Virus record (IMG/VR): IMGVR_UViG_3300017782_004332
Location: 1 to 64,000 of that record
DNA from: a virus
Strand: one strand, 5' to 3'
DNA length: 64,000 nt
Of this stretch, positions 17,194-50,947 are shown piece by piece; position 1 is the stretch's first letter, and the number at the start of each line of letters is the position of its first letter. The notes under the pieces were generated by a model that was not told the origin of the DNA, searched no databases, and was given only the letters and a program-made list of their open reading frames with translations. The translations under genes were made by a program, and so were the position numbers.

Positions 17194-17212
17194 TAAACAC
17201 ATGGAGTTAAAA

Positions 17213-27413: not shown

Positions 27414-27801
27414 TCTAATAAGTCCGCCCGATAGGTTACATAATAATAACTTTACATTCAATCTTATTAATACAACGCCCGAAGAACAAGAAGCGGTGAG
27501 CATGTTCTTAGCAAAGAATGACGTCGCTGAAGAAGTTAACGTTTATGTGTATAATAATGAATCCAATCCGAATTGGTTATTAGAAACTGTAGATGGTAAA
27601 AATAATACCTATATTAATCTTGACAACACCGGTGATATTAGTGTAAAATATACTAGTTACATGTTAAGTCAGAGTAACGTTTATTATAATACTAACGATG
27701 ATAATAGTAGTGAGATTTATAGTTTAATTAATCCCAATAGGATTTCATCAGTAACACAATTTTTGGATACGATATATGAGCAAAGAAACAACAACAAATA
27801 A
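27397..27801 (+). CDS. Hypothetical protein preceding clpX
   Basis: 134 residues from TTG 27397 after GAGG. N- and Y-rich, soluble. Overlaps the end of the membrane-protein gene by 17 nt and the start of clpX by 26 nt, so translation is coupled to ClpX. An adaptor role for ClpX is possible from position but no motif supports it. Confidence 0.55.
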   Translation: MTKKINLISPPDRLHNNNFTFNLINTTPEEQEAVSMFLAKNDVAEEVNVYVYNNESNPNWLLETVDGKNNTYINLDNTGDISVKYTSYMLSQSNVYYNTNDDNSSEIYSLINPNRISSVTQFLDTIYEQRNNNK

Positions 27802-29050
27802 TAAAAATTACCTCTGTGATTTTTGTGGTAAAAAACGAGATGAAGTACACAAACTTATAGTTGGCAATGGCGCTTCAATTTGTAATGAATGCATTGACCT
27901 TTGCAGTAATATTCTAGCAGAAGAAAAGTCTGTTAGTATTAATAAAGCAAACAAAAACCAAGTTGACTTAACTACTCTTGATCCGCTTACAGTTAAAAAT
28001 ATTCTTGACCAACATGTTATAGGACAAGAAGATGCAAAAATATCTTTAAGTGTAGCAGTAGCACAACACTATAAAAAATTATTCAATCCTAGCACAGATT
28101 TAAAACTAGATAAAACAAATGTAATGTTAATGGGTCCAACTGGGTCAGGCAAGACATTGTTAGCACAAACTATTGCAGACTATCTTGGAGTTCCGTTTGC
28201 TATCTGTGATGCAACAACACTTACAGAAGCAGGATACGTCGGAGACGATGTTGAAAGCATTATAACAAGATTAGTTACTGAGGCCGACGGTAATGTTGAA
28301 CTTGCAGAAAAAGGTATTGTGTTTATTGATGAAATAGATAAAGTTACTAAAAAGCAACAAAACGTGTCAGTTACAAGAGACGTAAGTGGCGAAGGTGTAC
28401 AACAAGGTTTACTTAAAATTATTGAAGGTACCAAAATTAGATTATCCGCGGCAGGTGCAAAACGGAAGAATCCACAAGCAGACGTATTAGATATTGATAC
28501 TAAAAATATGTTGTTTATTGTTGGTGGAGCCTTTATTGGATTAGAAAAAGTTATCGATGATAGATTAAACAAAGGCGGTATTGGATTTGGTGTTGATATT
28601 GTTGACGAAAGTAAAACAGGTGACTTATCATTAGTTGAGCCAGAAGATTTAATCAAATATGGGTTCATTCCAGAGTTTATTGGTCGTTTTGGATTAATTA
28701 CCGACGTAAAAGAGTTGACAGAATCTCAATTAGTTAGTATAATGAAAGAACCTAAAAACGCATTGTATAAACAATACAAATATTTGTTTAAGATTGACAA
28801 TGTAGATTTAGAGATTACTAATGATGCTATGAGTTATATCGCAGAAAAGGCAAAAAAATTGAAGACTAATGCTAGAGGTATAAAAGCAATATTAGAAAAT
28901 ATTTTATTAAAATGGCAGTTTCAATCTACCAGTTTAGTAAAAGACGGCTTAACTGGAATTACAATTAACAAAGAAGCAGTTGATAACCCAGAAAAGGCAA
29001 TAACAGTGTATAATACTAAGAAGAAAGAGGAAAATGGCAAAAAACTTTAA
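27776..29050 (+). CDS. clpX: ClpX, AAA+ unfoldase of ClpXP
   Basis: 424 residues, full length. N-terminal zinc-binding domain with C14/C17 and C36/C39; Walker A GPTGSGKT (120-127); pore-1 loop GYVG; Walker B VFIDEID; sensor and arginine-finger region FIGRFG; and an IGF tripeptide (GGIGFGV), the loop that docks ClpP. So it should unfold ssrA-tagged and other substrates and feed ClpP. The phage also carries clpP, a ClpP-like gene, clpS and the tmRNA. Divergence from a host copy cannot be judged here. Confidence 0.97.
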   Translation: MSKETTTNNKNYLCDFCGKKRDEVHKLIVGNGASICNECIDLCSNILAEEKSVSINKANKNQVDLTTLDPLTVKNILDQHVIGQEDAKISLSVAVAQHYKKLFNPSTDLKLDKTNVMLMGPTGSGKTLLAQTIADYLGVPFAICDATTLTEAGYVGDDVESIITRLVTEADGNVELAEKGIVFIDEIDKVTKKQQNVSVTRDVSGEGVQQGLLKIIEGTKIRLSAAGAKRKNPQADVLDIDTKNMLFIVGGAFIGLEKVIDDRLNKGGIGFGVDIVDESKTGDLSLVEPEDLIKYGFIPEFIGRFGLITDVKELTESQLVSIMKEPKNALYKQYKYLFKIDNVDLEITNDAMSYIAEKAKKLKTNARGIKAILENILLKWQFQSTSLVKDGLTGITINKEAVDNPEKAITVYNTKKKEENGKKL

Positions 29051-29304: not shown

Positions 29305-29841
29305 ATGACAACCCATGCGATGATAGACCTTGAAACATTAGGTACTAAACCTAACTGTGTAATACTAACTTTAGGTGCAATTAAATTTAATCCGTTAACA
29401 GCAGATGAACCTAACAACGGAATCTATCAAAAATTTGATATTGATCAACAAGACAAACTAGGTCGCAGTCAAGATGAAAGTACAATTGAATGGTGGGGCA
29501 AACAAGCCAAGAACATTCAAGACGAAGCATTTGGCGAAGACGGCCGTATATCTTTAGAACAGTGTACTAAAGAGTTGAATAAATTTCTCGTCGGAGTTGA
29601 CGTTGTGTGGGCACAGGGACCTGTTTTCGATATTGTTATTTTAGAAAATCTTTACCAACAATTAGGTTTGCCATTGCCATGGAACTTTTGGCAAATAAGG
29701 GATAGTAGAACATTGTTTAGTTTGTTGCCTGAGGATCCACGTAAAGCGATTCGACAAGAGGCACACAACGCACTAGCCGATTGTTATTTTCAAGCCAAGT
29801 GTGTACAGAAAGCATATAGCGATCTTAAGGTAGTAAAATGA
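29305..29841 (+). CDS. DnaQ-like 3'-5' exonuclease (DexA-type)
   Basis: 178 residues. RNase-T/DEDD fold: D-L-E near the N-terminus (MIDLETLG), WAQGPVFDIVIL carrying the second Asp, and HNALADC with the His and last Asp (DEDDh). Small stand-alone enzymes like T4 DexA degrade DNA or RNA 3' ends. GAGGCAG upstream; overlaps the next gene (ATGA). Confidence 0.85.
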   Translation: MTTHAMIDLETLGTKPNCVILTLGAIKFNPLTADEPNNGIYQKFDIDQQDKLGRSQDESTIEWWGKQAKNIQDEAFGEDGRISLEQCTKELNKFLVGVDVVWAQGPVFDIVILENLYQQLGLPLPWNFWQIRDSRTLFSLLPEDPRKAIRQEAHNALADCYFQAKCVQKAYSDLKVVK

Positions 29842-30428
29842 TTAGAGAAGATTACTTTGCTACACCAGTATACCAGTTTGATCTAAAATCAGATAATCAA
29901 CCCTTAATAGATTGGGCATACAAAGTAAATGAACAACCTTTAAATTCTAATGGTGGGAAACAAAGTTTCAATACTGCTGACAAAAAGAATGATGCATCAA
30001 TGCAACATACGTTTCCATTACCATTTCAATATTTACAAAACCAAATACAAGACTATATTAATGAAGTTAGTAACGATTTAAATTTTCCTAAATGTGAATT
30101 ACAAAATTATTGGTTGAATGTAAATCCATATGGTGGATCTAATGATGTACATAATCATCCTAATTCTTTGTTGGTTGCAAATTATTATATAAATGCTACA
30201 ACAGATGATATGGGCGATATTGTTATACATAGGCAAGATGATTCACAATATTATACTAGTGCTATACCTAATAAAACAAATATTACACAAAGATCAATAC
30301 ACATTAAACCTTACACAGGATTGTTAGTAGTATTTCCTGGTTGGGTAAAACATTCTGTTACTACTAATTTGAATGAAGAGAATGATAGAATATCACTGTC
30401 AATGAATTACGGAAGGATAAGATTGTGA
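29838..30428 (+). CDS. Putative 2OG-Fe(II) oxygenase
   Basis: 196 residues. Jelly-roll oxygenase pattern: an HNHP metal-binding segment, INATTDDMGDIVI, and a distal FPGWVKHSV (His ligand) followed by R-I-S-L-S-x-N, matching phage proteins of the putative 2OG-Fe(II) oxygenase type. Substrate unknown. Overlaps both neighbours. Confidence 0.75.
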   Translation: MIREDYFATPVYQFDLKSDNQPLIDWAYKVNEQPLNSNGGKQSFNTADKKNDASMQHTFPLPFQYLQNQIQDYINEVSNDLNFPKCELQNYWLNVNPYGGSNDVHNHPNSLLVANYYINATTDDMGDIVIHRQDDSQYYTSAIPNKTNITQRSIHIKPYTGLLVVFPGWVKHSVTTNLNEENDRISLSMNYGRIRL

Positions 30429-32143: not shown

Positions 32144-32335
32144 TTAACGATATAAGTTTTCTGATTGATCAGCAATAACGTGTTTATCGTCATGTTCGAC
32201 ATATCTGTCAAACCATAAACTAAAACCTAGTGCAACAAATCCAATACCAAGTAAAACCCAAAAAAACGGTTCTGTTGTTAACAAATGCCATAGTACTTGC
32301 AATCCGTCCATGTTTGAATAATCTACTTCAGCCAT
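32144..32335 (-). CDS. Small membrane protein
   Basis: 63 residues with one membrane helix (about 25-42, FFWVLLGIGFVALGFSLWF). Overlaps the DUF454 gene by 13 nt; last gene of the ALAS unit. Unknown function. Confidence 0.55.
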   Translation of the reverse strand: MAEVDYSNMDGLQVLWHLLTTEPFFWVLLGIGFVALGFSLWFDRYVEHDDKHVIADQSENLYR

Positions 32336-32742
32336 GCTACTCGTTCGCCTGCTTTGACTCTTCTTGCATGTTCTTCAACTGATCCTGGATATCTCCACGC
32401 CCATATTGCAACACCTAACATAAATGCTCCTGACCATAGGACTGCGTTTACATTACCTGTCGCAAAAAACGTAAATGCCAAAGTTGACGACATTACTATT
32501 ACCATTGCATATTTTCCTTTAGTAGGAAAAACTCTTTTACCTGTCCAGTTAGTTAAAAACTTACCAAACCATGGATGGTTGTATAACCATTTTTCCATCT
32601 TAGGTGAACTCTTTGCAAACGCCCAGGCCGCGATTACTAAGAAGATTGAAAAGGGAATTCCTGGCGTAACAAATCCTATGTAGGCCATACCTACACAGAA
32701 AAAACCAATTGCTTGGTACATATATTTTTTTATTGTATTCAT
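32323..32742 (-). CDS. DUF454 (YbaN-type) membrane protein
   Basis: 139 residues with three to four membrane helices and the family signature GFVTPGIPFSIFLVIAAWAFAKSSPK followed by LYNHPWFG. DUF454 genes sit next to heme-related genes in some bacteria, which fits the overlap (4 nt) with the ALAS gene here. A role in tetrapyrrole handling is inference from position. Confidence 0.78.
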   Translation of the reverse strand: MNTIKKYMYQAIGFFCVGMAYIGFVTPGIPFSIFLVIAAWAFAKSSPKMEKWLYNHPWFGKFLTNWTGKRVFPTKGKYAMVIVMSSTLAFTFFATGNVNAVLWSGAFMLGVAIWAWRYPGSVEEHARRVKAGERVAWLK

Positions 32743-33929
32743 AAAATTTTGTGCCTTTCTAACACTACAAGTAATTTATCCACAAGTTCGTCCATCATAG
32801 CGTTAGTGTGATTAGGCGTAGGAGTAAAACGTAGTCTTTCTGTACCTACGTCAACTGTCGGATAGTTAATAGGCTGTACGTATATACCGTCTTTGTACAG
32901 CAAGTCATCGGATATCTGCTTACACTTAACAGCGTCTCCAATCATCACAGGTACTATATGACTAGGATTATCTAGTACAGGAATACCCGCGGATTTAAAT
33001 TTGTCCTTTAATGTAGTTGCTCTATCCATAATTTCATCACGTAGATTTGGATGTTCTTTTACGTATCGAATTGACGCAAGAGCACCTGCACACAATACAG
33101 GACTTAAACTAGTAGTGAATATAAATGCTGGTGCTAATGATCTAATAGCATCTATAAAAGGTGTCTTAGACGCAATATAACCGCCCTGTACACCGAATGC
33201 TTTCGCTAGGGTGCCGTTTACTATATCAACATCTATGTTGTCTCGTTCAGTAACACCCCCGCCATTTTTACCATATAACCCAACTCCATGAACTTCGTCC
33301 AAATAGGTCAATGCATCATACTTCTTACACAGTTTTACAATTTCTTTAATAGGACTTATATCACCATCCATGCTATAAACAGATTCGAACACAACCATTT
33401 TGGTTCCTTTTATCTGTTTTAGTTTTAATTCTAATTCTTGTAAATCATTATGCGACCAAATTACTTTGTTAGCACGACTATGTCTAATACCTTGTATAAT
33501 ACTAGAATGATTTTTACTATCACTAATAAATGTAATATCAGGAATAATTTTAGCAATAGTTTCTAATGTAGTTTCGTTGGCATTGAAAGCACTTGTAAAA
33601 AGTAATGCACTTTCTTTTTTATGCAACTTTGCTATCTCGGCTTCTAATGCTACATGGTAATGAGTTGTCCCAGATATGTTTCTAGTTCCACCACTACCTG
33701 CACCTGCTGTGTCTAATGCTGTTCTCATAGCATCTAAAACAAACTGATGCTGACCCATACCTAAGTAATCGTTCGAACACCAATTTACTATTTTTTTAAT
33801 TGCATATTTTGAATACCAAATAGCATTAGGAAAGTCACCGCAGTCACGCAGGATATCATTAAACACCCTATACTTTCCATCAGATTTAAGTTGATCTATA
33901 ACTTCTTCGAATTTTTTAATATTAATCAT
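32739..33929 (-). CDS. hemA: 5-aminolevulinate synthase (ALAS, Shemin pathway)
   Basis: 396 residues, full length. Condenses glycine and succinyl-CoA to 5-aminolevulinate with PLP, the committed step of tetrapyrrole synthesis in alphaproteobacteria. Visible: YRVFNDI near the N-terminus, NDYLGMG glycine loop, HxxH of SKNHSSIIQGIRH, DEVHG (D211/H214, PLP ring), and the Schiff-base K243 in TLAKAFG. ALAS rather than KBL/BioF is favoured by the N-terminal segment. First gene of a minus-strand unit with DUF454; a CTAAATA box lies upstream on the minus strand. Phage-borne ALAS genes have been reported from aquatic phage sequences. Confidence 0.92.
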   Translation of the reverse strand: MINIKKFEEVIDQLKSDGKYRVFNDILRDCGDFPNAIWYSKYAIKKIVNWCSNDYLGMGQHQFVLDAMRTALDTAGAGSGGTRNISGTTHYHVALEAEIAKLHKKESALLFTSAFNANETTLETIAKIIPDITFISDSKNHSSIIQGIRHSRANKVIWSHNDLQELELKLKQIKGTKMVVFESVYSMDGDISPIKEIVKLCKKYDALTYLDEVHGVGLYGKNGGGVTERDNIDVDIVNGTLAKAFGVQGGYIASKTPFIDAIRSLAPAFIFTTSLSPVLCAGALASIRYVKEHPNLRDEIMDRATTLKDKFKSAGIPVLDNPSHIVPVMIGDAVKCKQISDDLLYKDGIYVQPINYPTVDVGTERLRFTPTPNHTNAMMDELVDKLLVVLERHKIL

Positions 33930-34049
33930 GTTATTCCAATAATATGCGTATATTATATTTAGTATAGTTTTGGAAGAAAAAACTTCAAATTGCTCTTGTA
34001 ATTTTAAAAAAAAGTATTATATTATATATGTACAGTAGAAATGCTGTAT

Positions 34050-34115
34050 AAATAAATGTGTAGGTTGCTTGATAGGACCTGCATATAATAACTTGCTTAA
34101 TAAAGGAGAAAAACA
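34050..34115 (+). promoter_or_regulatory. Hsp20 leader: ROSE-like RNA thermometer candidate
   Basis: CTTGCT (34092-34097), 6-nt loop, AGGAG (34104-34108): the anti-SD pairs with the ribosome site as C-G, T-A, T-G, bulged G, C-G, T-A. This UUGCU/AGGA helix with a bulged G is the hallmark of ROSE thermometers. An upstream hairpin GTAGGT/ACCTGC (about 34061-34083) adds the multi-hairpin layout. The same element precedes groES. Confidence 0.6.
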
Positions 34116-34562
34116 ATGACAAACAAAACCCTATCAATTTTTAATCAACTAAGACCCGTAACTGTAGGATTCGATCCTGTATTTGATCGTTTTGAACGAA
34201 TGTTCAATGACGATTTCTTTAACGGTCCAAGCAACACAGGATATCCGCCTTACAATATTGTAAGAACAGGTGACTACACCTATGATATCGAAGTTGCGTT
34301 AGCAGGCTTCAGCAAAGAAGATATTGATGTATCATACGAAGATGGTGTGGTATCTATCAAATCTGTTCATGAAGCAAAGGACAAAGAAGAAAAAGAAGGT
34401 ACTATATACAAAGGAATTAGTAAAAGATCGTTTACTAAAGCGTTTCAAATTTCTGATGATGTAGAAGTTAAAGGTGCCGAGTTGAAAGATGGCTTGCTTA
34501 GAATCTGTTTGGAAAGAATTATTCCAGAGAGTAAAAAACCAAGAACTATCGAAATTAAGTAA
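34116..34562 (+). CDS. Small heat-shock protein, Hsp20/alpha-crystallin family
   Basis: 148 residues. Alpha-crystallin domain (about 45-140) with YDIEVALAGFSKEDIDVSYEDGVVSI and the terminal GLLRICLER; C-terminal I-x-I-like tail (TIEIK). ATP-independent holdase that protects nascent phage or host proteins. Leader resembles a ROSE thermometer. Monocistronic, followed by a hairpin terminator. Confidence 0.93.
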   Translation: MTNKTLSIFNQLRPVTVGFDPVFDRFERMFNDDFFNGPSNTGYPPYNIVRTGDYTYDIEVALAGFSKEDIDVSYEDGVVSIKSVHEAKDKEEKEGTIYKGISKRSFTKAFQISDDVEVKGAELKDGLLRICLERIIPESKKPRTIEIK

Positions 34563-34569
34563 AACATTT

Positions 34570-34605
34570 ATTGGGGGATAGTTTGGTGCTTTCCCCCAAT
34601 ATTAC
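34570..34605 (+). terminator. Terminator after hsp20
   Basis: 9-bp perfect stem ATTGGGGGA / TCCCCCAAT with 13-nt loop; T-run weak. Confidence 0.65.
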
Positions 34606-34608
34606 CTA

Positions 34609-34637
34609 TTGCATTATTTTTATAAAGGTGCTATAAT
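34609..34637 (+). promoter_or_regulatory. Sigma70-type promoter for clpS
   Basis: TTGCAT (34609-34614), 17 nt, TATAAT (34632-34637) preceded by AAAGGTGC, a phrase shared with the tmRNA promoter. Confidence 0.75.
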
Positions 34638-34665
34638 ACTTAAATACTATTGAGAGGAATATATA

Positions 34666-34974
34666 ATGACACAAGAATCTACAGCAACAGTAACTAAAGA
34701 AAAAATTGCTGATAAAATTAACGAGCCTGGTTTATATAAGGTTGTATTTTTTAACGACGATTTAACTCCTATGGACTTTGTTGTACAAGTGTTAATGACA
34801 ATCTTTAAGCATTCAGAATCAACCGCAAATAAAATTACACAAGAAGTTCATTCTAAAGGTGAAGGCATTGCCGGTATATTCACATACGAGATTGCTGAAC
34901 AGAAGGGTGTAGAAACTACTGTCCTAGCAAGAGAACAAGGATTTCCGCTCGCAATTAAGGTCGAGCCTGAATAA
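34666..34974 (+). CDS. clpS: ClpS, N-degron adaptor
   Basis: 102 residues. Core ClpS signature YKVVFFNDDLTPMDFVVQVL with the N-D-D residues that bind N-terminal residues, then helix and a GIAGIFTYEIAE segment. Normally delivers N-degron substrates to ClpA/ClpC; no ClpA gene is present in the window, so it must act with a host ClpA or in an unusual way. Preceded by GAGAGGAA. Confidence 0.93.
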   Translation: MTQESTATVTKEKIADKINEPGLYKVVFFNDDLTPMDFVVQVLMTIFKHSESTANKITQEVHSKGEGIAGIFTYEIAEQKGVETTVLAREQGFPLAIKVEPE

Positions 34975-34980
34975 TAAGTT

Positions 34981-34986
34981 TAAATA
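34981..34986 (+). promoter_or_regulatory. TAAATA late-promoter-like box, 5 nt before ATG
   Basis: TTTAAATA then GTAGT then ATG of the heme oxygenase gene at 34992. Confidence 0.6.
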
Positions 34987-34991
34987 GTAGT

Positions 34992-35534
34992 ATGACTACT
35001 ATAAAAGAACTAACTTGGGAACATCACAAAAACGCTGAGCGTCAACAATTTGTAAAAGTTCTAATGAGCGGATCGATTGATCCTAAACTCTATGCAACTT
35101 TCCTTTTTAATCAACATCCATGCTATAACATACTAGAAGCGATTGCTACTGGTCACGGGTTACTTGATGGAATATTCGAAGTAAAACGTGCAACTAAAAT
35201 TCATGAAGACTTTTTAGAACTATGGCCGGACGAATCTAAACCTAAATTACTTAAATGTACAGATGAATACATGGAACACATTAAAAGTATCATGGATGAT
35301 CAAGATAAAATTATGGCACATGTATATGTGAGACATATGGGCGATCTAAGTGGCGGACAGATGATTCGTAAAAAGATTCCTGGCAAAGGTACTATGTACG
35401 ACTTTGATGGTGATATTCCAACAATGAAAGATAAAATTAGAGCAAAGTTAAATGATAGTATGGCCGAAGAAGCCAAGTTATGTTTTGAATTTGCAACTAA
35501 CACATTTAAAGAACTAATGGAGATTGAAATTTAA
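34992..35534 (+). CDS. ho: Heme oxygenase
   Basis: 180 residues, shorter than many plant/cyanobacterial homologues but complete. Cleaves heme to biliverdin IX-alpha, CO and iron using reduced ferredoxin. Visible: proximal-histidine helix TWEHHKNAE (His11/12) and distal helix YVRHMGDLSGGQMI with the family GD-x-SGG motif. One base separates it from the bilin reductase that would use its product. Predicted leaderless late expression. Confidence 0.92.
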   Translation: MTTIKELTWEHHKNAERQQFVKVLMSGSIDPKLYATFLFNQHPCYNILEAIATGHGLLDGIFEVKRATKIHEDFLELWPDESKPKLLKCTDEYMEHIKSIMDDQDKIMAHVYVRHMGDLSGGQMIRKKIPGKGTMYDFDGDIPTMKDKIRAKLNDSMAEEAKLCFEFATNTFKELMEIEI

Positions 35535-35535
35535 A

Positions 35536-36231
35536 ATGAGTGCTATCTGGGATAAATTGATTTCATGCAAAGATGAAATTATTGATATATTTGATGAACA
35601 TTGCGGCGAAGTTGAAGAACCCGGAATGCAACAATTTAATCAACCTGAAAATGGTTGGATTAATAGAGTGTGGTCGAACACTGATATACGTAGAGCACAT
35701 ATCGATGTTGTTGATGCTAGAGATACAAAAGGCCTATGGATGATGCATGTTTGTTGTTTTCCAGTGTTTAACAATGACGGACCTATATATGGATTTGATG
35801 TGATTGCTGGTAAAAATAAAATGACCGGAGCATTTCATGATTTTAGTGCAAGTAGTGGTGGTGAAGATCATCCTCTAGTAGATTGGTATCAAGATGCTGT
35901 GAAAGATTTTATTCCGAGTAAACGCCGCGAATTGCCTGAGTGGGCTCAGAATATTTTTAGTCCAAGTATGATTGCCGCAGGTAATGTTAGTAGCGAAGAA
36001 GAAGCGTCTGCTATTATTGAACTTGCTACAAACAATTTAAGAGTATACTTTGAAAGTATCAGTGATTACACAGGGCAAGGTATGGTTGATATTACTAAAG
36101 GCGCACAAAACTATTATTGTCATAACCAGCAACAGAACCCACATACACCACGTACTATGAAGTCGTTAGGACTTAACGAGCAAGATGTTATAACATTTTG
36201 CACAGATGCATTGTTTCCTAAAGTGGACTAA
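35536..36231 (+). CDS. pcyX: Ferredoxin-dependent bilin reductase (PcyX/PebS-like)
   Basis: 231 residues from ATG 35536; an in-frame TTG at 35524 overlaps the heme oxygenase end and is less likely. FDBR family marks: IDVVDARDTKGLWMMHVCCFP, PIYGFDVIAGKNKMTGAFHDFS, and C-terminal NPHTPRTMKSLGL. Reduces biliverdin to a phycobilin with ferredoxin electrons; phage PcyX makes phycoerythrobilin, and the adjacent heme oxygenase matches the known ho-pcyX pair of marine phage contigs. Exact product cannot be fixed from sequence alone. Confidence 0.87.
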   Translation: MSAIWDKLISCKDEIIDIFDEHCGEVEEPGMQQFNQPENGWINRVWSNTDIRRAHIDVVDARDTKGLWMMHVCCFPVFNNDGPIYGFDVIAGKNKMTGAFHDFSASSGGEDHPLVDWYQDAVKDFIPSKRRELPEWAQNIFSPSMIAAGNVSSEEEASAIIELATNNLRVYFESISDYTGQGMVDITKGAQNYYCHNQQQNPHTPRTMKSLGLNEQDVITFCTDALFPKVD

Positions 36232-36239: not shown

Positions 36240-37778
36240 ATGAGAGCATTAGAATTCACACGATTACTTGAAGAGCCTATGGCTCCTGGAGACATGGAAC
36301 GAGTAAGAAGCAGTAAGCCAGTCGATCCTAAACTTGACCAAGCACTGTCTGACGTACAAACTGCTATTGAAAACGATCCTAGTCTTTTACAAAAATTCAA
36401 ACAAATTGTTATTAATACTAAACAAAAAGCACAACAATTATTAAAAAATAGTAATCAAGGCGATCCTAATACTAAAACTGAAATTGAATCAGTCGAAGTT
36501 ATTGAAGACGCTCAGGCACATACAGCCGCTAGTGATTATAGTGATGCTATAAAAGGTATCATAGCCACTCTAGCAAATCAAGGTCAACCTACACAAAACC
36601 TTCAGGACGAATTACTAAAGCAGATCAATGCACTTGTACAATCAGAAAAAGCAATTTCTTTTCAGCAAGGCGACGAACAAGGCGAAGCAAGAGGCAAAGC
36701 AAACTCAGATAAAGTTTTAAAACAATTAAGTAGTGAGATTAGATTACTTGCACAAAAAGTATCAGGTTTTGTAGATTTAGATCCAACAGTAAAGTATAAC
36801 AGTAAAGATAAAAAGAAACATGCAAATGCACAAAAAGCCACAGAAGAATTAGGAAGTGGATTGTATCAATTGTTTTTTAATAAAGTGTTTTTGCAGAATG
36901 AACTAACTGAACAAGAAGTAGTAAATTTTGTCAAAGATTGTGTTGCTGGTAACGTTTTAGATATGCCTAAAATGATTAATTCAAAAAATGGAGTTATTGA
37001 TAACTTTGTTAAAATGCACAAAAAAGTATACGATTCTGTAGTAGAAGATTTAGTTAATTTTAAAGGTGCTGGTACAACTGGCGGTGCATTAGGACCTGCA
37101 GAAATATTATTAAGTGCTATCGGTTCTCCAGTTGAAACAGGTACTGGAGGCGTAAAAGGTGACCTTGCTGTAAAAATGCCCGACGGAACTATTTTGGGTG
37201 TTGAAGTAAAAGCAGGTAACGAAAGCAAAGGCTCAGGTGCTAGATTAAATGGTACAGAAGTCAATGATGGTAAAGGTGCATTAAGTCACTTTAAAAAATT
37301 ATACAAAGATCTAGGATTAGAAGTAAGTTCTTATTCTATTAGTCCTAAGTTTTTAATACCACTTAACCAGCAATTATCCAAATTTGATAATACAAAATTA
37401 AATCAATATGTTGTAGGAGTGTTGAACGCATTAGTTAATAACTACGACGAAGTGTTAAAATTCAAAGACAACAAAACAGATGCTGGCCAAAAAATAAAAG
37501 AATTAATTGATAATACAATTCAACCAGGAAATGAAAATGGTCCAATTGTATTTGAAGCATTTAGAGATCTAATAACATATGTTCAACTAGTAAGTTACAA
37601 GATATCAGACGGTGTTGCAACTATTATGACTGTTGATACTTTACATCGTTCGTTTAGTATTACAGATAGTCCAGAAGAATTTATAGATCAAATTGGTAAA
37701 AGACATGTAGTTGCAAAAAACCTTTCTATTACACCAGATCCACAAACGGCATCATTTCATTTTAGATCATCCAAATAA
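36240..37778 (+). CDS. Large putative internal protein with PD-(D/E)XK nuclease-like core
   Basis: 512 residues. Leader-like N-terminus (MRALEFTRLLEEP) with an L-L-E-E cleavage-type site. About 50-290 is helical and Q/K-rich. At about 305-330, a G-D308 turn, a hydrophobic strand and V-E322-V-K324 reproduce the D...(D/E)xK core of restriction-like nucleases; an RLNGTE/GKGALSHFKK segment follows. A nuclease packaged in the capsid and injected with DNA would fit. Function is inference; motifs only. Confidence 0.6.
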   Translation: MRALEFTRLLEEPMAPGDMERVRSSKPVDPKLDQALSDVQTAIENDPSLLQKFKQIVINTKQKAQQLLKNSNQGDPNTKTEIESVEVIEDAQAHTAASDYSDAIKGIIATLANQGQPTQNLQDELLKQINALVQSEKAISFQQGDEQGEARGKANSDKVLKQLSSEIRLLAQKVSGFVDLDPTVKYNSKDKKKHANAQKATEELGSGLYQLFFNKVFLQNELTEQEVVNFVKDCVAGNVLDMPKMINSKNGVIDNFVKMHKKVYDSVVEDLVNFKGAGTTGGALGPAEILLSAIGSPVETGTGGVKGDLAVKMPDGTILGVEVKAGNESKGSGARLNGTEVNDGKGALSHFKKLYKDLGLEVSSYSISPKFLIPLNQQLSKFDNTKLNQYVVGVLNALVNNYDEVLKFKDNKTDAGQKIKELIDNTIQPGNENGPIVFEAFRDLITYVQLVSYKISDGVATIMTVDTLHRSFSITDSPEEFIDQIGKRHVVAKNLSITPDPQTASFHFRSSK

Positions 37779-37811: not shown

Positions 37812-37859
37812 ATATACATATTGCGGAGTACCAGTCCGGTGCCACGAATAGGAGACAAA

Positions 37860-38429
37860 ATGAATAGAATAGAACATAAAACAAAAGACGGCGATAGTAT
37901 TGTAATTTTTGACGATTTGTTTGATTACTCTACTAGAATGCTTTGGTTTCAGGCTATCTATAATAGTAGTTTAACATTTGGAATTTCGTATGACAGTCAA
38001 TTGTCAGATATGAAAAGTGTTAGCGGGTTAGGTAATCATTGGCCCAAATACGAATGGGACAATTACGGACTAGATAGACACAAAAATTGGCCTGAAGTAC
38101 AAAAAGAATTGGGTGATAGACAATGGAAAAGAACATGGTTGAATGTTGCTACAGGTAAAGAACTGTTTAGATTTCATGCAGATCATAATTTAAATAATGC
38201 AAAAAGTATTTTGTATTATCCAAATCTTAAATGGGACACTGATTGGGATGGTCAAACATTGTTTAAAAGTCGAGATGGAAAAACTTACGAATACTGTATA
38301 GATTATGTTCCAGGAAGACTTGTGGTATTTGACAGCATTATACCACATAAAGCCACTCATGCTAATCACGAGGCACCCGGCCTTAGAATGATTATTAATG
38401 CTGTATTTTACAAAGAAGAGAAAAAGTAA
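37860..38429 (+). CDS. Putative 2OG-Fe(II) oxygenase (prolyl-4-hydroxylase-like)
   Basis: 189 residues from ATG 37860 after AGGAG; an earlier in-frame start lies before the ribosome site. H-x-D metal motif in FHADHNLNN, then ILYYPN...WDGQTLF, and the distal His region LVVFDSIIPHKATH. Fe(II)/2-oxoglutarate dioxygenases are abundant in marine T4-like phages; substrate unknown. Confidence 0.8.
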   Translation: MNRIEHKTKDGDSIVIFDDLFDYSTRMLWFQAIYNSSLTFGISYDSQLSDMKSVSGLGNHWPKYEWDNYGLDRHKNWPEVQKELGDRQWKRTWLNVATGKELFRFHADHNLNNAKSILYYPNLKWDTDWDGQTLFKSRDGKTYEYCIDYVPGRLVVFDSIIPHKATHANHEAPGLRMIINAVFYKEEKK

Positions 38430-39127: not shown

Positions 39128-39139
39128 ATTATACATCAA

Positions 39140-39191
39140 GACGCTACAAAGGTTTTGTTGTAACTTGCTTAACAAAGGAGAAGAAACGTTT
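39140..39191 (+). promoter_or_regulatory. groES leader: ROSE-like RNA thermometer candidate
   Basis: CTTGCT (39164-39169), 6-nt loop, AGGAG (39176-39180), pairing with a single bulged G exactly as in the hsp20 leader; an upstream TACAA/TTGTA hairpin precedes it. The 20-odd bases around it are nearly identical to the hsp20 leader although the coding regions are unrelated. Confidence 0.6.
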
Positions 39192-39485
39192 ATGAAAGTA
39201 AATCCAATTAGAGATAGAATACTAGTAAAACCTATCGACGCAGAAACAAAAACTGCATCTGGTCTAGTTATACCCGATACTGCAACTGAAAAACCAAACC
39301 GAGGTATGGTTGTTGCATTAGGAACCGGTAAGGTTGCTGAAAACGGAACTATTGTTCCAATGGTTTTAAAACAAGGCGATACCGTACTATACGGAAAGTT
39401 CGCAGGTAATGAAGTAAAAATTGACGGTGATAACCATCTTGTATTAAATGAAGATGATGTTATGGCTGTTGTAGAAGGAGTATAA
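39192..39485 (+). CDS. groES: GroES co-chaperonin
   Basis: 97 residues from ATG 39192. An in-frame TTG at 39165 lies within the leader hairpin and is rejected. Roof and mobile-loop segments are normal: IRDRILVKPIDAETKTASGLVIPDTATEKP (mobile loop), GTVL-type LYGKFAGNEVKIDG. Caps GroEL. T4-like phages usually encode only a GroES-like gp31 analogue; here a bacterial-type GroES precedes its own GroEL by 3 nt. Confidence 0.96.
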   Translation: MKVNPIRDRILVKPIDAETKTASGLVIPDTATEKPNRGMVVALGTGKVAENGTIVPMVLKQGDTVLYGKFAGNEVKIDGDNHLVLNEDDVMAVVEGV

Positions 39486-41111
<1,626 letters not shown>

Positions 41112-43474: not shown

Positions 43475-45538
43475 ATGGCTGATAACAGGTATTACGAATT
43501 AGCAACACACAACGAAGCACAATTTGATGAATTGTTTCTAGAGATAACAGGAACAGCATCAAGCCCAGATACAATTCCAGATAGAGCAGTTGAAAACACA
43601 GAATACTTTCAACATAGTCCTGTGCGTGGAGAATTTTTACTTACTGACGATGAAGCAGAAAATTTAAAAACAGATGCAAGAATAAAATACATTCAACTAT
43701 CACCAGACAAGTATCCTGATATTTTTAACGCAACTGAAGATGACCTTCGTGCAGACGTTACAGGTAATGAATATGAAAGATATAGTTTTTCTGTTAAGAA
43801 CTATCAGTTCTGGGCAAATAGTGGGGCGATATCAAGTGCATTTGGTACAGGCGCGGCAGATCTTAATCATGCATCAAATCAACTTTATAGAATGGGTCAA
43901 CAAAGAAACCCATGGATTGTAAGTGGTACTAGTAGTACAACTGCTATCTCAGATACTATTACACAACGAGGTGCAGGAGAAGATATAGATATTATTTGTG
44001 CTGATAACGGAACATGGATTGGCCATGTTGAATTTATTAATACAGGTGTTACTAATGCTGTTAATCCAGATGATTACACAGGCGGTAATGTTTTACCCGG
44101 CAACGGATATTGTGATGTATTAGATGTTATTTTAGATGGACCTTATTATATAGATCCAGATTGGTTTAACGCTGATGCGGCGACTAGATTAACCACACGT
44201 TGGGACGGAACAACAGTGCCTGTAGAAAGTGTTGCTAGAACATGGTGGGGAAACAGTTCTCAACGTTCTGCCGCATTTGCTAGTGCAGGAACAGTAACAA
44301 TAAGTTCATTTTACACAAGAGATGGTGTACATGGATCTAACACAACACATCCAACAGGTGCCGCGGCTACACACGGAACTCAGTGTGCAAGTTTGATATA
44401 CGGTCGTACACACGGTTGGGCATACAACGCAAACAAATGGCATTTAAATTTATACGGCGCTAGTAACGCAGGGTCAATTGAGCGTGGGTTTGATATTCAA
44501 AAGATTTTCCATGAAAACAAACCTAACAATTCAAGATACGGAACTAAAGATCCAACTATAAGTTCAAACAGTTGGGGATATAGAGCAGACAAGTCAGGAA
44601 CACATTATTATTTTCGTGATAGCGGAGCAGTAAGTTATCCTGGATCAGTTGACGAACCAGAATTTTTAAAGTATATGGGTATAGATGGAGATGGTGGTCG
44701 TTGGAAATCAGAATTTTATGATAATAGTTTAACTCAGGCTGGAGAAGAATTAGTAAACAGTGGAGTTATTTTTGTAGTGGCGGCTGGCAACAGTGGACAG
44801 ATGCAAGTTAATCCAAGCCATCCTAATTACGATAATAGAATTGCTAACAATAATACTGATAGTTTTTACAATACCACTTACAGTAGTTTTGGTTATAGTG
44901 TTACAGGGTCTACAAATAGAAGAGGTTTCCCACAACACATTGGTAAATCAGTAAGTCAAAGTTCACAAGGTGATACAGTAAACTTTCCTGCTATTAACGT
45001 AGGAGCACTAGATGATTCATTTCAAACTGGTCCATTAGAACGTAAAGTTAATTATAGTGATATGGGGAATGCTATTGACTTATACGCACCTGCAGACGGA
45101 ACACTTGCGGCGGCAGTAGGAACATATGGAACTGATGTTGCACGTCATGATGATACTTACACAGATCTATCAACAACAGATTGTCGTGATACACGCTTTA
45201 GTGGTACTTCAGCGGCATGTCCAGTTGCGGCAGGATTTTTAGCAACTATCTTACAATACAATAGAGGTTGGACTTATACTGATGTACGAAATTGGATTAC
45301 AACTAATGTTCAAGGTGTTGACAGCACCAACGAATTTTATGTAGGCACAGAAGATACTACAGCCGAAAGCGCCGGTTGGGCTGATCGCAACAAACCACAA
45401 AATAGTGCAGATGATGTACGAGTTCTTTATCTAGCACCTTTTACAATTTCAACACCCGACCCACAAACAAACCCTACTGTTTCAATTGGTAATGGATTAA
45501 CGTTCAGTAAAGGTCTAGTTCTTAAAAGACGTGTGTAG
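43475..45538 (+). CDS. Virion-type protein with subtilisin-like protease domain
   Basis: 687 residues. S8 subtilase triad is visible: Asp in IICADNGTW (about 176), His in THGTQCASLI (about 300), Ser in FSGTSAACPVAAG (about 578); the oxyanion Asn lies in VFVVAAGNSGQ. The N-terminal ~120 residues precede the catalytic domain and the C-terminal ~90 are fibre-like. No signal peptide. In a fibre operon, it may be a tail protease acting on host surface proteins or maturing fibres. Confidence 0.85.
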   Translation: MADNRYYELATHNEAQFDELFLEITGTASSPDTIPDRAVENTEYFQHSPVRGEFLLTDDEAENLKTDARIKYIQLSPDKYPDIFNATEDDLRADVTGNEYERYSFSVKNYQFWANSGAISSAFGTGAADLNHASNQLYRMGQQRNPWIVSGTSSTTAISDTITQRGAGEDIDIICADNGTWIGHVEFINTGVTNAVNPDDYTGGNVLPGNGYCDVLDVILDGPYYIDPDWFNADAATRLTTRWDGTTVPVESVARTWWGNSSQRSAAFASAGTVTISSFYTRDGVHGSNTTHPTGAAATHGTQCASLIYGRTHGWAYNANKWHLNLYGASNAGSIERGFDIQKIFHENKPNNSRYGTKDPTISSNSWGYRADKSGTHYYFRDSGAVSYPGSVDEPEFLKYMGIDGDGGRWKSEFYDNSLTQAGEELVNSGVIFVVAAGNSGQMQVNPSHPNYDNRIANNNTDSFYNTTYSSFGYSVTGSTNRRGFPQHIGKSVSQSSQGDTVNFPAINVGALDDSFQTGPLERKVNYSDMGNAIDLYAPADGTLAAAVGTYGTDVARHDDTYTDLSTTDCRDTRFSGTSAACPVAAGFLATILQYNRGWTYTDVRNWITTNVQGVDSTNEFYVGTEDTTAESAGWADRNKPQNSADDVRVLYLAPFTISTPDPQTNPTVSIGNGLTFSKGLVLKRRV

Positions 45539-46566: not shown

Positions 46567-48618
46567 TTATTTGGTTGTTGCTATAAAGACGCCGTTCCAG
46601 TCTTTAGGTAAGTCTTGTGTTTTCTGATATTTACAACGTTCAATCCACATATCATAATAAGCATCCATTTGTCCATCAAATTGTCCTTTAAGGTCTTTAC
46701 ACATTTTAATAGCAATATCAAAACGTTGATCTTTATATTCTTTGTGCATATGATCGTGTAGTTCTTTTGCCTTAGCATGATCTTTTATAACAATATCTAA
46801 TACTGTCCATATACCTATTCCTACACTCTTGCCTTTAACAGCAAGATCATCTACTTTTAAGTAGAAGAAATCATTCTTAGTTGCTTTATAAGTTGTTTCA
46901 CCTACTAATAGCAAACATCCGTATTCTTTACACTTGCTTTCAATTCTTGCGGCTGTGCTGACGGCATCACCAAGTACATCGTAGGAGTGTCTTGCTGTCG
47001 ACCCCATTTCTCCAAGGTAACCAAGTCCGGAGTTAATACCCGCTCCCATACCGATGGCTGGCCTTCCTTCTGCTGTAATTTTTTCATTAAACTTCTCCAC
47101 TGCTCGTAGCATATTCAATCCAGTGCGGACTGCACTCTTAGGATGATCTGGATCATCAAGTGGTGCACCATGTACATGCATACTTGCATCTCCTATATAC
47201 TTAATTATCATTCCGTTTTCGTTTAAAACAGGTAAAGTAATAGCGTCCATATATGAGTTCATAAGTGTTGTCAATCCTTTTACATCATCTCCAAAACTTT
47301 CACCCAAAGGAGTAAAGCCTCTCAGATCACTGAAGCAGATTGAAATTTCTTTCTTCATGCCTTCTTTGATCAGTGCAGGATTTTCTTGTAGCATACGCAC
47401 AACTGTTGGTGATGCATATCCTGCGAACTGTTTCTTAATTGCTTGTTTTTCAAAGAACTCTTTGGAAAATCGATTGAACACAGAATGGAAACCAACAATA
47501 GTAGTTACTAGTACTATCCAACTCCAATCCCATAACTGTAGATGCCCTATAAACGCTGTATAAGCACCGTACACAGGCGCTATGATTACTGTAAGCATAG
47601 TAGTACCAACGACCCAGTAAGGCGCTTTAAACGCTATTATAATTAGAATAAGACCTATAATAGTAGCAGTTATATACTCTAAAAACGTAGCATAATCAAA
47701 ACGTACAATAGTATCCCCATTAATGATAGTTTGGAGACTTGTGCCTATAAGTTCGTGTGCATATCGTTCTCCGTTTGGAGTAGCAATAATACTGCCTATA
47801 CCTTCTGCTGTAGTTCCAATAATAACTGTTTTGCCTGCAAATTGTGTGTAATCTTGTTCTGTTATACTGTAGGTAGGAAACTGCTTGTTCCAACGTAGCC
47901 ATATCTGTCCATTTGCATCTGTTTTGATTGTGGCGTACTTTGGAATACGCATTGCAGTAATACCGCCTTCTTGCGTTTTAACTTGATAACTTGGATCTCC
48001 AACAGCAACTCTGATGGCTTCAATTGCTATAGCAGGATATGTTTCGTTGCCTACACGTACAATAAGTGGCATTCTACGTACAACCCCGTCTATCTCTGAA
48101 CCTGTGTTTAAAACTCCAACACCGTCTGCATTTAATCCTAATAATTCTATTGGTCCTAACATGCCAGGCCATTCAAACAACCATGGCATAGGATCGCCTA
48201 TCTTAGCAACACCTCGTGGTACAGAATTCTTGTTTGCATTTCGCGAACCTACTTGTCCTATGACTACAGCATTACCTACTAATGCTTGAGCAAGTTCCAT
48301 GTCACCACCAAGTCTATCTTCCTCTGAAAATAATATAGGCAGTACAATTACTCCTGCACCTGACTCACGTAACTTCCATATAACATCAGCGAGTACTGAA
48401 CGTTTCCAAGGCCATTGCCCATACTGCTCGATCGCTTTTTCGTCTATCTCAAGTATGGCGATATCTTCGCTAACAACTGGAGTATCGTATTGTTGAACAA
48501 CATCAAATGCTTTTAGTCTCAATAGTTGCTTAACATAAGGATCTGAAAATCCGTATATTGTAAGAAATGCTAAAGTAATCAGGGCGGTTGCCCAGTGGGT
48601 TACATATTTCATACTCAT
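46567..48618 (-). CDS. CHASE2-domain membrane adenylate/guanylate cyclase
   Basis: 683 residues. N-terminal membrane helix (about 8-25), periplasmic CHASE2 sensor (about 30-300, EDIAILEIDEKAIEQYGQWPWKR), three membrane helices (about 310-385), then a class III cyclase domain (about 410-600): metal Asp in CFSDLRGFT and YIGDASMH, substrate Lys in KYIGD, and VLGDAVSTAARIE, where the usual transition-state Asn is replaced by Ser although the Arg remains. Would make cAMP or cGMP on a periplasmic cue. Divergent from the curli operon; FecR/CHASE2-cyclase neighbours are known in bacteria. Confidence 0.93.
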   Translation of the reverse strand: MSMKYVTHWATALITLAFLTIYGFSDPYVKQLLRLKAFDVVQQYDTPVVSEDIAILEIDEKAIEQYGQWPWKRSVLADVIWKLRESGAGVIVLPILFSEEDRLGGDMELAQALVGNAVVIGQVGSRNANKNSVPRGVAKIGDPMPWLFEWPGMLGPIELLGLNADGVGVLNTGSEIDGVVRRMPLIVRVGNETYPAIAIEAIRVAVGDPSYQVKTQEGGITAMRIPKYATIKTDANGQIWLRWNKQFPTYSITEQDYTQFAGKTVIIGTTAEGIGSIIATPNGERYAHELIGTSLQTIINGDTIVRFDYATFLEYITATIIGLILIIIAFKAPYWVVGTTMLTVIIAPVYGAYTAFIGHLQLWDWSWIVLVTTIVGFHSVFNRFSKEFFEKQAIKKQFAGYASPTVVRMLQENPALIKEGMKKEISICFSDLRGFTPLGESFGDDVKGLTTLMNSYMDAITLPVLNENGMIIKYIGDASMHVHGAPLDDPDHPKSAVRTGLNMLRAVEKFNEKITAEGRPAIGMGAGINSGLGYLGEMGSTARHSYDVLGDAVSTAARIESKCKEYGCLLLVGETTYKATKNDFFYLKVDDLAVKGKSVGIGIWTVLDIVIKDHAKAKELHDHMHKEYKDQRFDIAIKMCKDLKGQFDGQMDAYYDMWIERCKYQKTQDLPKDWNGVFIATTK

Positions 48619-48739
48619 ATTTACCTAGTCAGACCGTCAAATTTCCAACATTCTTGTTGTACAAATTATTTCGACCGTCAAAATTTTGTACCAGCATTAT
48701 TTGTGGGGTGGCGTTGGTAAATACGTATGGAGGGCAATA
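48619..48739. promoter_or_regulatory. Divergent regulatory region, cyclase / curli operon
   Basis: Contains two direct copies of GACCGTCAAA (about 48632 and 48673) and an inverted repeat GTACAAA...TTTGTAC spanning the second copy. On the minus strand each copy reads TTTGACGGTC, which includes a -35-like TTGACG. A TAAATA box (about 48718) and GGAGGG lie before csgF. A shared operator is plausible. Confidence 0.5.
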
Positions 48740-49210
48740 ATGCGTAATAACATAACATTTAGAGTAGTACCACTAATCGGACTATTAATCGTTACTTTAA
48801 CAGCAAATTCTGTTGCTAGTGAACTAGTACATGAATTCAAGAATCCTTCCTTCTCAGGACAGGGTTATAGTAACCATGTCTTGTCAATAGAACAATTACA
48901 ATTCCAACGTAAAAAAGAAGCACAGGAAAAGGCAGAGGCAGATGCGGCCAAGGCTAAGCGTGAAGCAGAAAGCACTACACTAGCAAAGTTCTTGAACAAT
49001 GTGGAATCTCGAATTTATGCTCAACTCTCTAAACAGTTAGTAGATAATATGTTTACTGACGATGGAGACACATCAGGCACTGCTGAGATTGAAGGTGCAA
49101 CAATTTATTGGGTCAAAGATACTACCTCGGATACTATTACTGTAACAATTACAAATGAAGACGGTACTACCACAGAGATAGTTGTTCCATTAAGCGGATT
49201 TGGATTTTAA
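48740..49210 (+). CDS. csgF: CsgF-like curli assembly factor
   Basis: 156 residues from ATG 48740 after GGAGGG. Signal peptide (about 1-26), then ELVHEFKNPSFSGQGYSNHVLSIEQLQFQ, the hallmark N-terminus of CsgF that inserts into the CsgG pore, then a helical K/E/A-rich middle and a beta-rich end. Couples secretion to surface nucleation of curli. Just upstream of csgG. Confidence 0.88.
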   Translation: MRNNITFRVVPLIGLLIVTLTANSVASELVHEFKNPSFSGQGYSNHVLSIEQLQFQRKKEAQEKAEADAAKAKREAESTTLAKFLNNVESRIYAQLSKQLVDNMFTDDGDTSGTAEIEGATIYWVKDTTSDTITVTITNEDGTTTEIVVPLSGFGF

Positions 49211-49214
49211 GAAA

Positions 49215-50249
49215 ATGAGTAAGATATTGGGTCTGTTTGTGTTATTAACACTACTAGGTGGCTGTGCGACTACTATGCCCGATTCTATGGTCAAAGATCC
49301 ACAAGCGGCAAGAAGTCCTATTGCAAGTATTTTAAAAACAACACCTGAGTTAGACGGACCATTAATCACTATAGCACTTTATAGTTTTACAGATAAAACA
49401 GGACAACGTAAGCCTAGTCAAAATTTTAGTCAATTAAGTTCAGCAGTTACACAAGGTGCTGAAGTTTGGGTCATTGACGCACTACAAAAAGTAGGTAATG
49501 GAACTTACTTTACAGTTTTAGAAAGAATAGGATTAGATAATTTAGTAAAAGAAAGGCAATTAATTAGATCAACAAGGGAGATATATGAAGGCAAGAAAGG
49601 GCAGAATAAATTAAAACCAATGAAGTTTGCAGGTTTAATTTTAGAAGGCGGTGTTGTTGGTTATGACTCGAACATAACCAGTGGTGGCACAGGAGCAAGA
49701 TACTTTGGTATCGGTGCTAACACACAATATCGTACTGACAAAGTTACAGTTGCAATAAGAATTGTGAGTGTACAAACTGGAGAAGTATTATTAAGTGTAG
49801 CCACTGAAAAAACAATCGCCAGTTATTCGTCCGGAGCGGATGTATTTAGGTTTCTTGATTTAGGGACAAAAGCATTAGAAATTGAGGCTGGTGCGGCAAT
49901 CAATGAACCGACCAATTATGCTGTGAGGTCCGCTATTGAAGCGGCTATAGTTGAATTGGTGAAAAATGGAGAAATAAAAGGTCTTTGGAAGTTTAAAGGA
50001 AAAGTGTACAAAGAAAAAGTTGTAGAGGTGCCGAACCAACACAATGAAGTCAAAGTAGATACTCCTTTACCAAACCTCCGCCCACTGCCAGACGTTGAGG
50101 CGTTTAAAAAGTGGCCGGGTCAGACTTTGTATTGTTCAGAGGATAATCTGTGTATACCATCAGATGTTGCTGTGATGCAGTTCAAGTATGAAAGACTGAG
50201 ACAAGAAAACAAAGAAAACAAAGATAGCGAGGATAATAATGATGAATAA
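49215..50249 (+). CDS. csgG: CsgG-like curli secretion channel lipoprotein
   Basis: 344 residues from ATG 49215 (a TTG at 49200 overlaps the csgF end). Lipobox LGGC (Cys about 17). CsgG family features: ITIALYSFTDKTGQRKPS, GAEVWVIDALQKVGNGTYFTVLERIGLDNLVKERQ, and the GGVVGYDSNITSGGTGARYFGIG strand pair that forms the barrel. Oligomerises into an outer-membrane pore exporting curlin subunits. C-terminal ~75 residues extend beyond the family core. Overlaps the curlin gene. Confidence 0.93.
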   Translation: MSKILGLFVLLTLLGGCATTMPDSMVKDPQAARSPIASILKTTPELDGPLITIALYSFTDKTGQRKPSQNFSQLSSAVTQGAEVWVIDALQKVGNGTYFTVLERIGLDNLVKERQLIRSTREIYEGKKGQNKLKPMKFAGLILEGGVVGYDSNITSGGTGARYFGIGANTQYRTDKVTVAIRIVSVQTGEVLLSVATEKTIASYSSGADVFRFLDLGTKALEIEAGAAINEPTNYAVRSAIEAAIVELVKNGEIKGLWKFKGKVYKEKVVEVPNQHNEVKVDTPLPNLRPLPDVEAFKKWPGQTLYCSEDNLCIPSDVAVMQFKYERLRQENKENKDSEDNNDE

Positions 50250-50946: not shown

Positions 50947-50947
50947 C

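Follow-up and report, generated by a model that had tools for sequence, protein, structure and literature searches.

A conserved hsp20-clpS-ho-pcyX block with a ROSE-like leader beside an apparently separately acquired 5-aminolevulinate synthase gene pair in a marine phage

The presence of the genes for heme oxygenase (HO) and the bilin reductase PcyX (ho-pcyX) in phages whose hosts lack phycobilisomes has been called 'enigmatic' in the literature (PMC11480375). The same question is raised by the IMG/VR virus record IMGVR_UViG_3300017782_004332, of which we analyzed the first 64 kb (termed the window) of 104,925 bases in total. An earlier note on this DNA regarded the genes for 5-aminolevulinate synthase (ALAS), HO, and a ferredoxin-dependent bilin reductase (FDBR) as one tetrapyrrole module. 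All three were found as intact open reading frames (ORFs) where that note had placed them, but ALAS is divergent from ho and separated from it by 1.06 kb, in which hsp20 and clpS, two genes unnamed in the earlier finding, are situated. In this study, we found that ho-pcyX belongs to a conserved hsp20-clpS-ho-pcyX block, and ALAS, together with a gene for a DUF454 protein, to a second module. The record displays T4-like features, namely a long tail protein with a gp9/10-like N-terminus, a clamp-loader-like AAA protein, and PhoH. It is of a marine virus of bacteria that carries predicted genes for both heme synthesis (ALAS) and heme breakdown (HO and PcyX).

The gene identities given in the earlier note were borne out by profile models and matches to solved structures in PDB. 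The viral ALAS (vAlaS; positions 32739-33929, minus strand) scored 571.7 bits against NCBIfam TIGR01821 (cut-off, 338.6 bits), with the next model at 323 bits; this ALAS model outscored all of the KBL, BioF, and SPT models, and the best PDB matches were the ALAS structures 7x98 and 2bwn. In the alignment to R. capsulatus ALAS (RcALAS; 2bwn), the lysine that binds PLP (K243, corresponding to RcALAS K248) and the residues for glycine and succinyl-CoA are kept (R21, N53, T82, N84, H141, S186, D211, H214, K243, T358, and R367). On the other hand, His342, which is involved in heme feedback, is replaced by lysine (K335), and the C-terminus ends before the position of Cys400, so that the Cys400 tail is absent. 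The ALAS in the window is thus predicted to be feedback-resistant, lacking the heme-feedback site, as are many phage vAlaS (PMC11480375); catalytic activity has been demonstrated for a relative, CB_2 vAlaS (PMC11480375). As expected of the HO-1/HmuO type, HO (34992-35534, plus strand; Pfam Heme_oxygenase, 76.8 bits with a cut-off of 23) keeps the proximal His12 and the distal-helix motif GDLSGGQ when aligned to the solved HOs 5kzl, 1wov, and 5uc8. The loss of catalytic residues in ALAS or HO, which the earlier note had named as an objection to its own reading, was therefore seen in neither. FDBR (35536-36231, plus strand; Pfam Fe_bilin_red, 55.9 bits with a cut-off of 31) matched PcyX 5owg best (E-value of 7e-84), with PcyA far behind (1e-11), and the corresponding phmmer scores were 284 and 48 bits. 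The residues at Asp55, His69, and Asp86 of PcyX are kept as D61, H75, and D92 of the 235-amino-acid ORF, in which the numbering of PcyX assumes an 8-residue offset of the 5owg chain. Instead of falling outside PcyX/PebS, the second objection foreseen, FDBR groups with PcyX both in phmmer and in a tree of viral PcyX sequences, in which PebS was not included. We regard it as a PcyX-type, predicted bilin reductase; only its start differs from that noted before (TTG at 35524), the probable one being the ATG at 35536 just after the stop codon of ho.

The genomic contexts of the relatives of these genes in viruses separated the two modules. Among 80 viral loci found by PcyX alone, ho-pcyX followed hsp20 and clpS almost throughout, and the order of hsp20, clpS, ho, and pcyX on one strand was shared by 85 of the 85 viral loci with all four genes (53 of them compact, with gaps of <500 bases); the latter numbers cover all of the loci fetched, near-copies included, and are not independent counts. 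ALAS is usually not near this block. Only 7 of the 42 virus records bearing the block possess ALAS, in most cases elsewhere in the record; many of the 42 are fragmentary, although ALAS is also missing from four records of 78-118 kb. When 80 viral ALAS loci were surveyed, ho or pcyX was found near ALAS in 26-29 of them, mostly as a contiguous ho-pcyX-alaS cassette without DUF454, and the layout seen in the window, in which ALAS-DUF454 diverges from the hsp20 block, recurred in about ten. The window does not bear the contiguous, same-strand cassette but fits what has been termed a 'broken cassette'. The gene for DUF454, a small membrane protein (32323-32742, minus strand; Pfam PF04304, 97.8 bits with a cut-off of 35.1), shares 4 bases with the 3' end of ALAS and goes with ALAS; it is directly downstream of ALAS on the same strand in 35 of the 80 viral ALAS loci. 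DUF454 is strongly conserved (mean column identity of 83%, versus 73% for ALAS). Conserved DUF454 also occurs often 1-2 kb downstream of nrdA-nrdB instead of by ALAS, with nrdB found in 51 of 80 DUF454 loci. We considered DUF454 as a heme gene on the basis of its neighborhood in alphaproteobacteria and rejected this candidate, as no recurring heme neighbor was found among 89 neighboring ORFs at 30 loci. In the literature, DUF454 co-occurs with haem oxygenase near type XI secretion system (T11SS) genes (PMC12282271) and increases under iron starvation in Avibacterium (PMC7970244).

The phylogenies of ALAS and PcyX are discordant. The viral ALAS sequences formed a single clade (support of 100), in which the window ALAS grouped with those of the cassette type (99). 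The window PcyX, in contrast, was placed inside the clade of the ALAS-less hsp20-clpS-ho-pcyX block (96), and the clade uniting it with the PcyX of contiguous cassettes was rejected by the approximately unbiased (AU) test (p = 0.012). These results suggest that PcyX and ALAS have different histories, and that ALAS-DUF454 is probably a separately acquired pair that joined the block from elsewhere. The phylogenetic check proposed in the earlier note, run here for ALAS and PcyX, thus upheld the grouping of PcyX but not a common history, and the 'one tetrapyrrole module' survives as a set of phage enzymes but not as a single unit, given the block without ALAS and the discordant trees. A dedicated tetrapyrrole pathway, in which flux enters from glycine through ALAS and is drawn off by HO and PcyX as a phycobilin for use as a pigment, antioxidant, or cofactor, is accordingly unlikely in our judgment. 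Phages do carry the three activities together repeatedly and in two or more arrangements, contiguous ho-pcyX-alaS and the divergent form in the window (PMC11480375), and a sigma70-like promoter before clpS-ho-pcyX (see below) is common to the ALAS-linked relatives; nevertheless, ALAS is missing from most of the block records, stands divergent to ho-pcyX, and would depend wholly on the host for the intermediate steps from 5-aminolevulinate to heme. SAR11 is one candidate donor of ALAS: the window ALAS is 48-51% identical to those of SAR11 and up to 61% to those of other alphaproteobacteria, and the free tree puts the viral ALAS apart from SAR11, but the AU test does not reject the clade of the viral and SAR11 sequences (p = 0.51). 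ALAS relatives were detected in at least 586 viral stretches in a scan of viral contigs, so the gene looks common in virus records. Among the carriers is L257, a phage of 364 kb in which a ClpP gene lies near the ALAS relative, and the ALAS matches in the records of L017 (G255) and L029 (G263) contain one in-frame TAA each, being either decayed copies or sequencing errors. Searches of named phages for ALAS yielded only KBL/BioF-type matches, many of them in short or doubtful records.

The first gene of the block, hsp20 (34116-34562, plus strand), encodes an IbpA-like small heat shock protein (Pfam HSP20, 65 bits) that is 66.7% identical to Hsp20 of the pelagiphage Mosig. Of the 186 bases between ALAS and hsp20, the side of hsp20 holds a T4-late-promoter-like box, TATAAATA (34047-34054, plus strand), and then a leader of about 60 bases. 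The position of the box is conserved, as 53 of 54 distinct relatives have NATAAATA 64-105 nucleotides upstream of the hsp20 start, and TATAAATA is rarer than expected by chance in the 105-kb record (3 occurrences versus about 8.5). With the placement and conservation of a T4-type late promoter, TATAAATA is a putative promoter of hsp20; no late-type box was found before ALAS in the window. The leader (34055-34121, plus strand) comprises a covarying hairpin I followed by CUUGCUU facing the Shine-Dalgarno (SD) sequence AGGAG. As in ROSE thermometers, U(U/C)GCU stands opposite SD in the last hairpin of the leader, CUUGCUUAAUAAAGGAG being at 34092 and the hsp20 start at 34116. The Rfam model ROSE_3 matched the leader with 26.8 bits and an E-value of 0.0012 (for the short stretch searched), on the correct strand and extending into the start codon of hsp20.

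The leader structure is the RNAalifold consensus of an alignment of 27 leaders. Compensatory changes were observed in six of the seven pairs of hairpin I; the number of double-change cells (35) exceeded that in shuffled alignments (12.7), none of the 500 shuffles reached it, and the covariation fell sharply when the pairing register was slid. From the same alignment, which contains hsp20 leaders only, we built a model (R1) and searched it against 764 kb. R1 scored 84 bits on the window hsp20 leader, a training member, and all of the 23 places with an E-value of <1 end at chaperone starts (18 hsp20, 2 groES, and 3 dnaK). One of them is a second ROSE-like leader in the window (39131-39197, plus strand; 32.2 bits with an E-value of 0.0018 over 764 kb), which extends into the start codon of groES. 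In the whole 105-kb record, CTTGCTTAA is confined to 34092 and 39164, in the hsp20 and groES leaders. Rfam found no ROSE match in the groES leader, the support for which comes from R1 and the exact motif. ROSE-like leaders before phage-encoded dnaK were seen in other records, namely L285 (3540-3591), L281 (3219-3287), L074 (6627-6696), and L372 (2998-3065). When the viral collection was scanned in an unbiased manner for the SD-hairpin sequence alone, 80 loci were retrieved, at least 73 of which have hsp20 downstream. The 53 R1 matches in 52 of these loci, a set of other leaders aligned by fitting to R1, covary again (110 double-change cells versus 27). The leaders of two isolates were also recovered, Melnitz (ROSE_3, 34.1 bits; R1, E-value of 0.00025) and Mosig (R1, E-value of 0.0011). 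A search of SAR11 and other alphaproteobacterial genomes returned no such leader, but its positive controls gave no signal either, and this negative carries no weight.

The record encodes further components of proteostasis. ClpS, the N-degron adaptor (34666-34974, plus strand; Pfam ClpS, 93.4 bits), shows the pocket residues NDD...M and H. The groES-groEL genes (39165-41111, plus strand; GroEL, 855 bits in NCBIfam) follow the second leader, and the groES ORF, listed from a TTG at 39165, likely starts with the ATG at about 39193. ClpX (27776-29050, plus strand; PRK05342, 512 bits with a cut-off of 359), ClpP (61719-62315, plus strand; PRK00277, 295 bits with a cut-off of 249), and a permuted tmRNA of the alphaproteobacterial type (17088-17586, plus strand; Rfam alpha_tmRNA, 114 bits, and ARAGORN) are in the window. 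Beyond it, DnaJ (about 93059-93922 of the record, or 10060-10923 of L003) and ClpA (about 94427-96694, or 11428-13695 of L003) were detected, the latter with 873 bits against its best model, albeit under the cut-off of 993 bits. ClpS therefore has its own unfoldase encoded by the same virus. A ClpP-like protein is encoded besides ClpP, and no DnaK was found in the part of the record examined. Individual phage Clp proteins and Hsp20 were already known. ClpS, ClpA, ClpX, and ClpP with tmRNA amount to a nearly full bacterial Clp proteolysis set on one phage.

From what was computed, namely the identities of the genes, the catalytic residues kept, the conservation of the block, the separate histories, and the covarying leader restricted to chaperone genes, we tentatively propose, giving it slightly less than an even chance, that two modules meet in this phage: the hsp20-clpS-ho-pcyX block for proteostasis and heme stress, and a separately acquired ALAS-DUF454 pair that tops up heme. 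In this proposal, hsp20 would be transcribed from the late-type promoter through the ROSE-like leader, which would keep SD hidden as long as the cell is neither warm nor under stress. Unfolding proteins would be held by Hsp20, and ClpS would deliver N-degron substrates to ClpAP made of ClpA and ClpP from the same virus. HO would open the heme freed from host hemoproteins into Fe(II), CO, and biliverdin, and PcyX would remove biliverdin by reducing it to a phycobilin. The presumed benefit is that toxic free heme is cleared and iron is recycled to phage iron enzymes, such as ribonucleotide reductase and 2-oxoglutarate (2OG)-Fe(II) oxygenases, while ALAS without the heme-feedback site may keep the heme supply going during infection. 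We regard the stress-block reading of HO-PcyX as the most economical. There is a precedent for heme oxygenase as a heat-shock protein in animal HO-1. A broader idea, possible but rather doubtful, is that marine phages own a heat-shock regulon, with ROSE-like thermometers on hsp20, groESL, and dnaK in different phages, and that one widespread lineage drew HO and PcyX into it, as a viral equivalent of the animal heme oxygenase that stress induces.

The fate of iron could by itself account for HO, if the enzyme chiefly frees Fe(II) for the phage 2OG-Fe(II) oxygenases and ribonucleotide reductase and the rest is incidental. Two 2OG-Fe(II)-like genes are indeed near the block (29838-30428, phrog_81; 37821-38429, under the Pfam cut-off), ho-pcyX of Mosig comes directly after several 2OG-Fe(II) oxygenases and ferrochelatase, and oxygenase-ferrochelatase pairs have been published for pelagiphages (PMC9599517). 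We nevertheless consider this improbable as the main role, as it explains neither PcyX nor the tie of ho-pcyX to hsp20-clpS. Far less probable still is signaling or light perception, with the bilin as the chromophore of a photoreceptor or biliprotein of the host or phage. No GAF or phycobilisome domain was found in the phage record by a search that did not extend to globins. Phycoerythrobilin (PEB) is not known as a photoactive phytochrome chromophore. The product of the CB_2 phage PcyA assembles a phytochrome, but the PcyX enzymes characterized so far make PEB (PMC11480375).

Several observations weigh against the stress-block reading. The leader does not reach the Rfam gathering score of 43 in the window or in Melnitz, and we call the leaders 'ROSE-like' instead of ROSE_3 for this reason. 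The SD accessibility predicted with ViennaRNA rises from 0.20 to 0.53 between 4 and 42°C but does the same in a control gene, and thermal folding does not separate the leaders from control genes. The leader looks like an RNA thermometer, but we infer its temperature sensing from family resemblance, position, and gene company. It is conceivable, though somewhat unlikely, that the leader is instead a middle promoter of the T4 type (with TGCTTtA as its MotA box), an enhancer of translation, or an RNA that responds to some other signal. Besides the folding result, the sequences TGCTTGA and TGCTTAA are similar to the MotA box given in PMC9004378, and TATAAT follows the first MotA-like box of the window at near-middle-promoter spacing. 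On the other side, changes in the stem sequences are compensated whereas many relatives have lost the letters of TGCTTGA, the second MotA-like box overlaps the hsp20 SD so that a promoter there would start inside hsp20, no middle promoters are identifiable in the related T4-like phages of the sea (PMC9004378), and the element is restricted to hsp20, groES, and dnaK. The link of ho-pcyX to hsp20 is a further difficulty. It is lineage-specific, as the two are not adjacent in Mosig. In the window, hsp20 is followed by a strong hairpin without a U tract (34569-34601, plus strand; RNA fold) and then by a sigma70-like promoter sequence, TTGCAT-17-TATAAT with the extended -10 TGCTATAAT (34609-34637, plus strand), before clpS-ho-pcyX, so that the expression of ho-pcyX may be uncoupled from that of hsp20. 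The gene controlled by a ROSE element is the one directly downstream of it, here hsp20. Clp-side transcription from an own promoter, perhaps matched to ALAS, may apply to clpS-ho-pcyX of this phage, and we are unsure of its co-control with hsp20. Forms of TTGCNT-17-TATATT/TATTAT were found before clpS in other ALAS-linked relatives, in which, as in the window, the hsp20-clpS gap is longer. In most ALAS-less relatives there is no room for a promoter in the gap, and since nothing promoter-like fits after the hairpin, clpS-ho-pcyX should be read through from hsp20. The two-stage timing of ALAS and ho-pcyX suggested in the earlier note is possible, with a late-type box before hsp20 and none before ALAS, but is not fixed because of the sigma70-like promoter. 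Finally, the further reduction by PcyX is not needed for either detoxification or iron release. As a side observation, 45 of 47 relatives have a hairpin below -9 kcal/mol at the hsp20-clpS gap, which is very variable in sequence and in most cases not followed by a U tract; an attenuator, processing site, or stabilizer is a candidate role.

Other features of the window are mentioned here briefly. A 512-amino-acid ORF without any match in Pfam or PHROGs directly follows pcyX (36240-37778), and the ORF at 43475-45538 looks by eye like one of the subtilisin-like protease type. The region at 46567-53517 encodes a CHASE2-adenylate cyclase, CsgF, CsgG, FecR, and two candidate repeat proteins resembling curlin, and corresponds to the curli module of pelagiphages, in which genes for curli, FecR, and adenylate cyclase are already known. 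A glutamine riboswitch is at 4460-4512, and another viral locus (L353, 2200-2319) has two in tandem.

The three-gene set itself is not new, since Wegner et al. (2024) already described viral alaS together with hemO and pcyA/X in phages of the sea and of fresh water, in contiguous cassettes, in broken ones, or alone, and showed that CB_2 vAlaS, vHemO, and vPcyA are active (PMC11480375). Their loci share the three enzymes with the window, and their 'broken cassette' has ho-pcyX together and valaS nearby. The window differs in that ALAS, which is divergent, forms a pair with DUF454, and in that ho-pcyX is behind hsp20-clpS; DUF454, ClpS, and Hsp20 are all unnamed in the main text of PMC11480375. 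Neither a ROSE-like phage thermometer nor the hsp20-clpS-ho-pcyX block with its leader was found in the literature searched, outside which most subscription papers fall. The new parts, as far as we found, are the apparent composite origin, the heat-shock block with a late-type box, and the ROSE-like leaders. The tie of ho-pcyX to a chaperone and protease block offers a testable answer to the question raised at the outset, namely that infected cells are under heme and protein stress. Should the leaders prove to be temperature sensors, they would be the first ROSE-like thermometers that we could trace in phages. They would be spread over hsp20, groES, and dnaK in marine viruses of high abundance and tie infection directly to ocean warming. 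Experiments are feasible, as the leader-bearing isolates Melnitz and Mosig are in culture.

Among known systems, the solved PcyX (5owg) is the closest structure to the window PcyX, with the same catalytic residues and an alignment over nearly the whole length, but the window PcyX is encoded in a heat-shock block and its product is predicted from sequence. HTVC008M and Mosig (pelagimyophages) and Melnitz (an OM43 phage) are, like the virus studied here, T4-like marine phages with hsp20; Mosig also has ho-pcyX, and Melnitz and Mosig share the ROSE-like leader, but the hsp20-clpS-ho-pcyX block of the window was absent from all three at the places read. The phage thermometers of lambda cIII, SPbeta blyA (fourU), and a sigma70 gene (fourU) are similar in that temperature control of translation has been proposed or shown (PMC11182007), as we propose here, but they are not ROSE-like and do not precede chaperone genes. 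The ROSE thermometers (Rfam ROSE_3, RF02523; PMC11182007) share with the window leader a heat-shock gene, two hairpins, and the pairing of U(U/C)GCU in the last hairpin with SD directly before the start codon. The window-type leaders differ from ROSE_3 in scoring under its gathering score, in having a thermometer role that is predicted, in residing in phages, and in preceding groES and dnaK as well.

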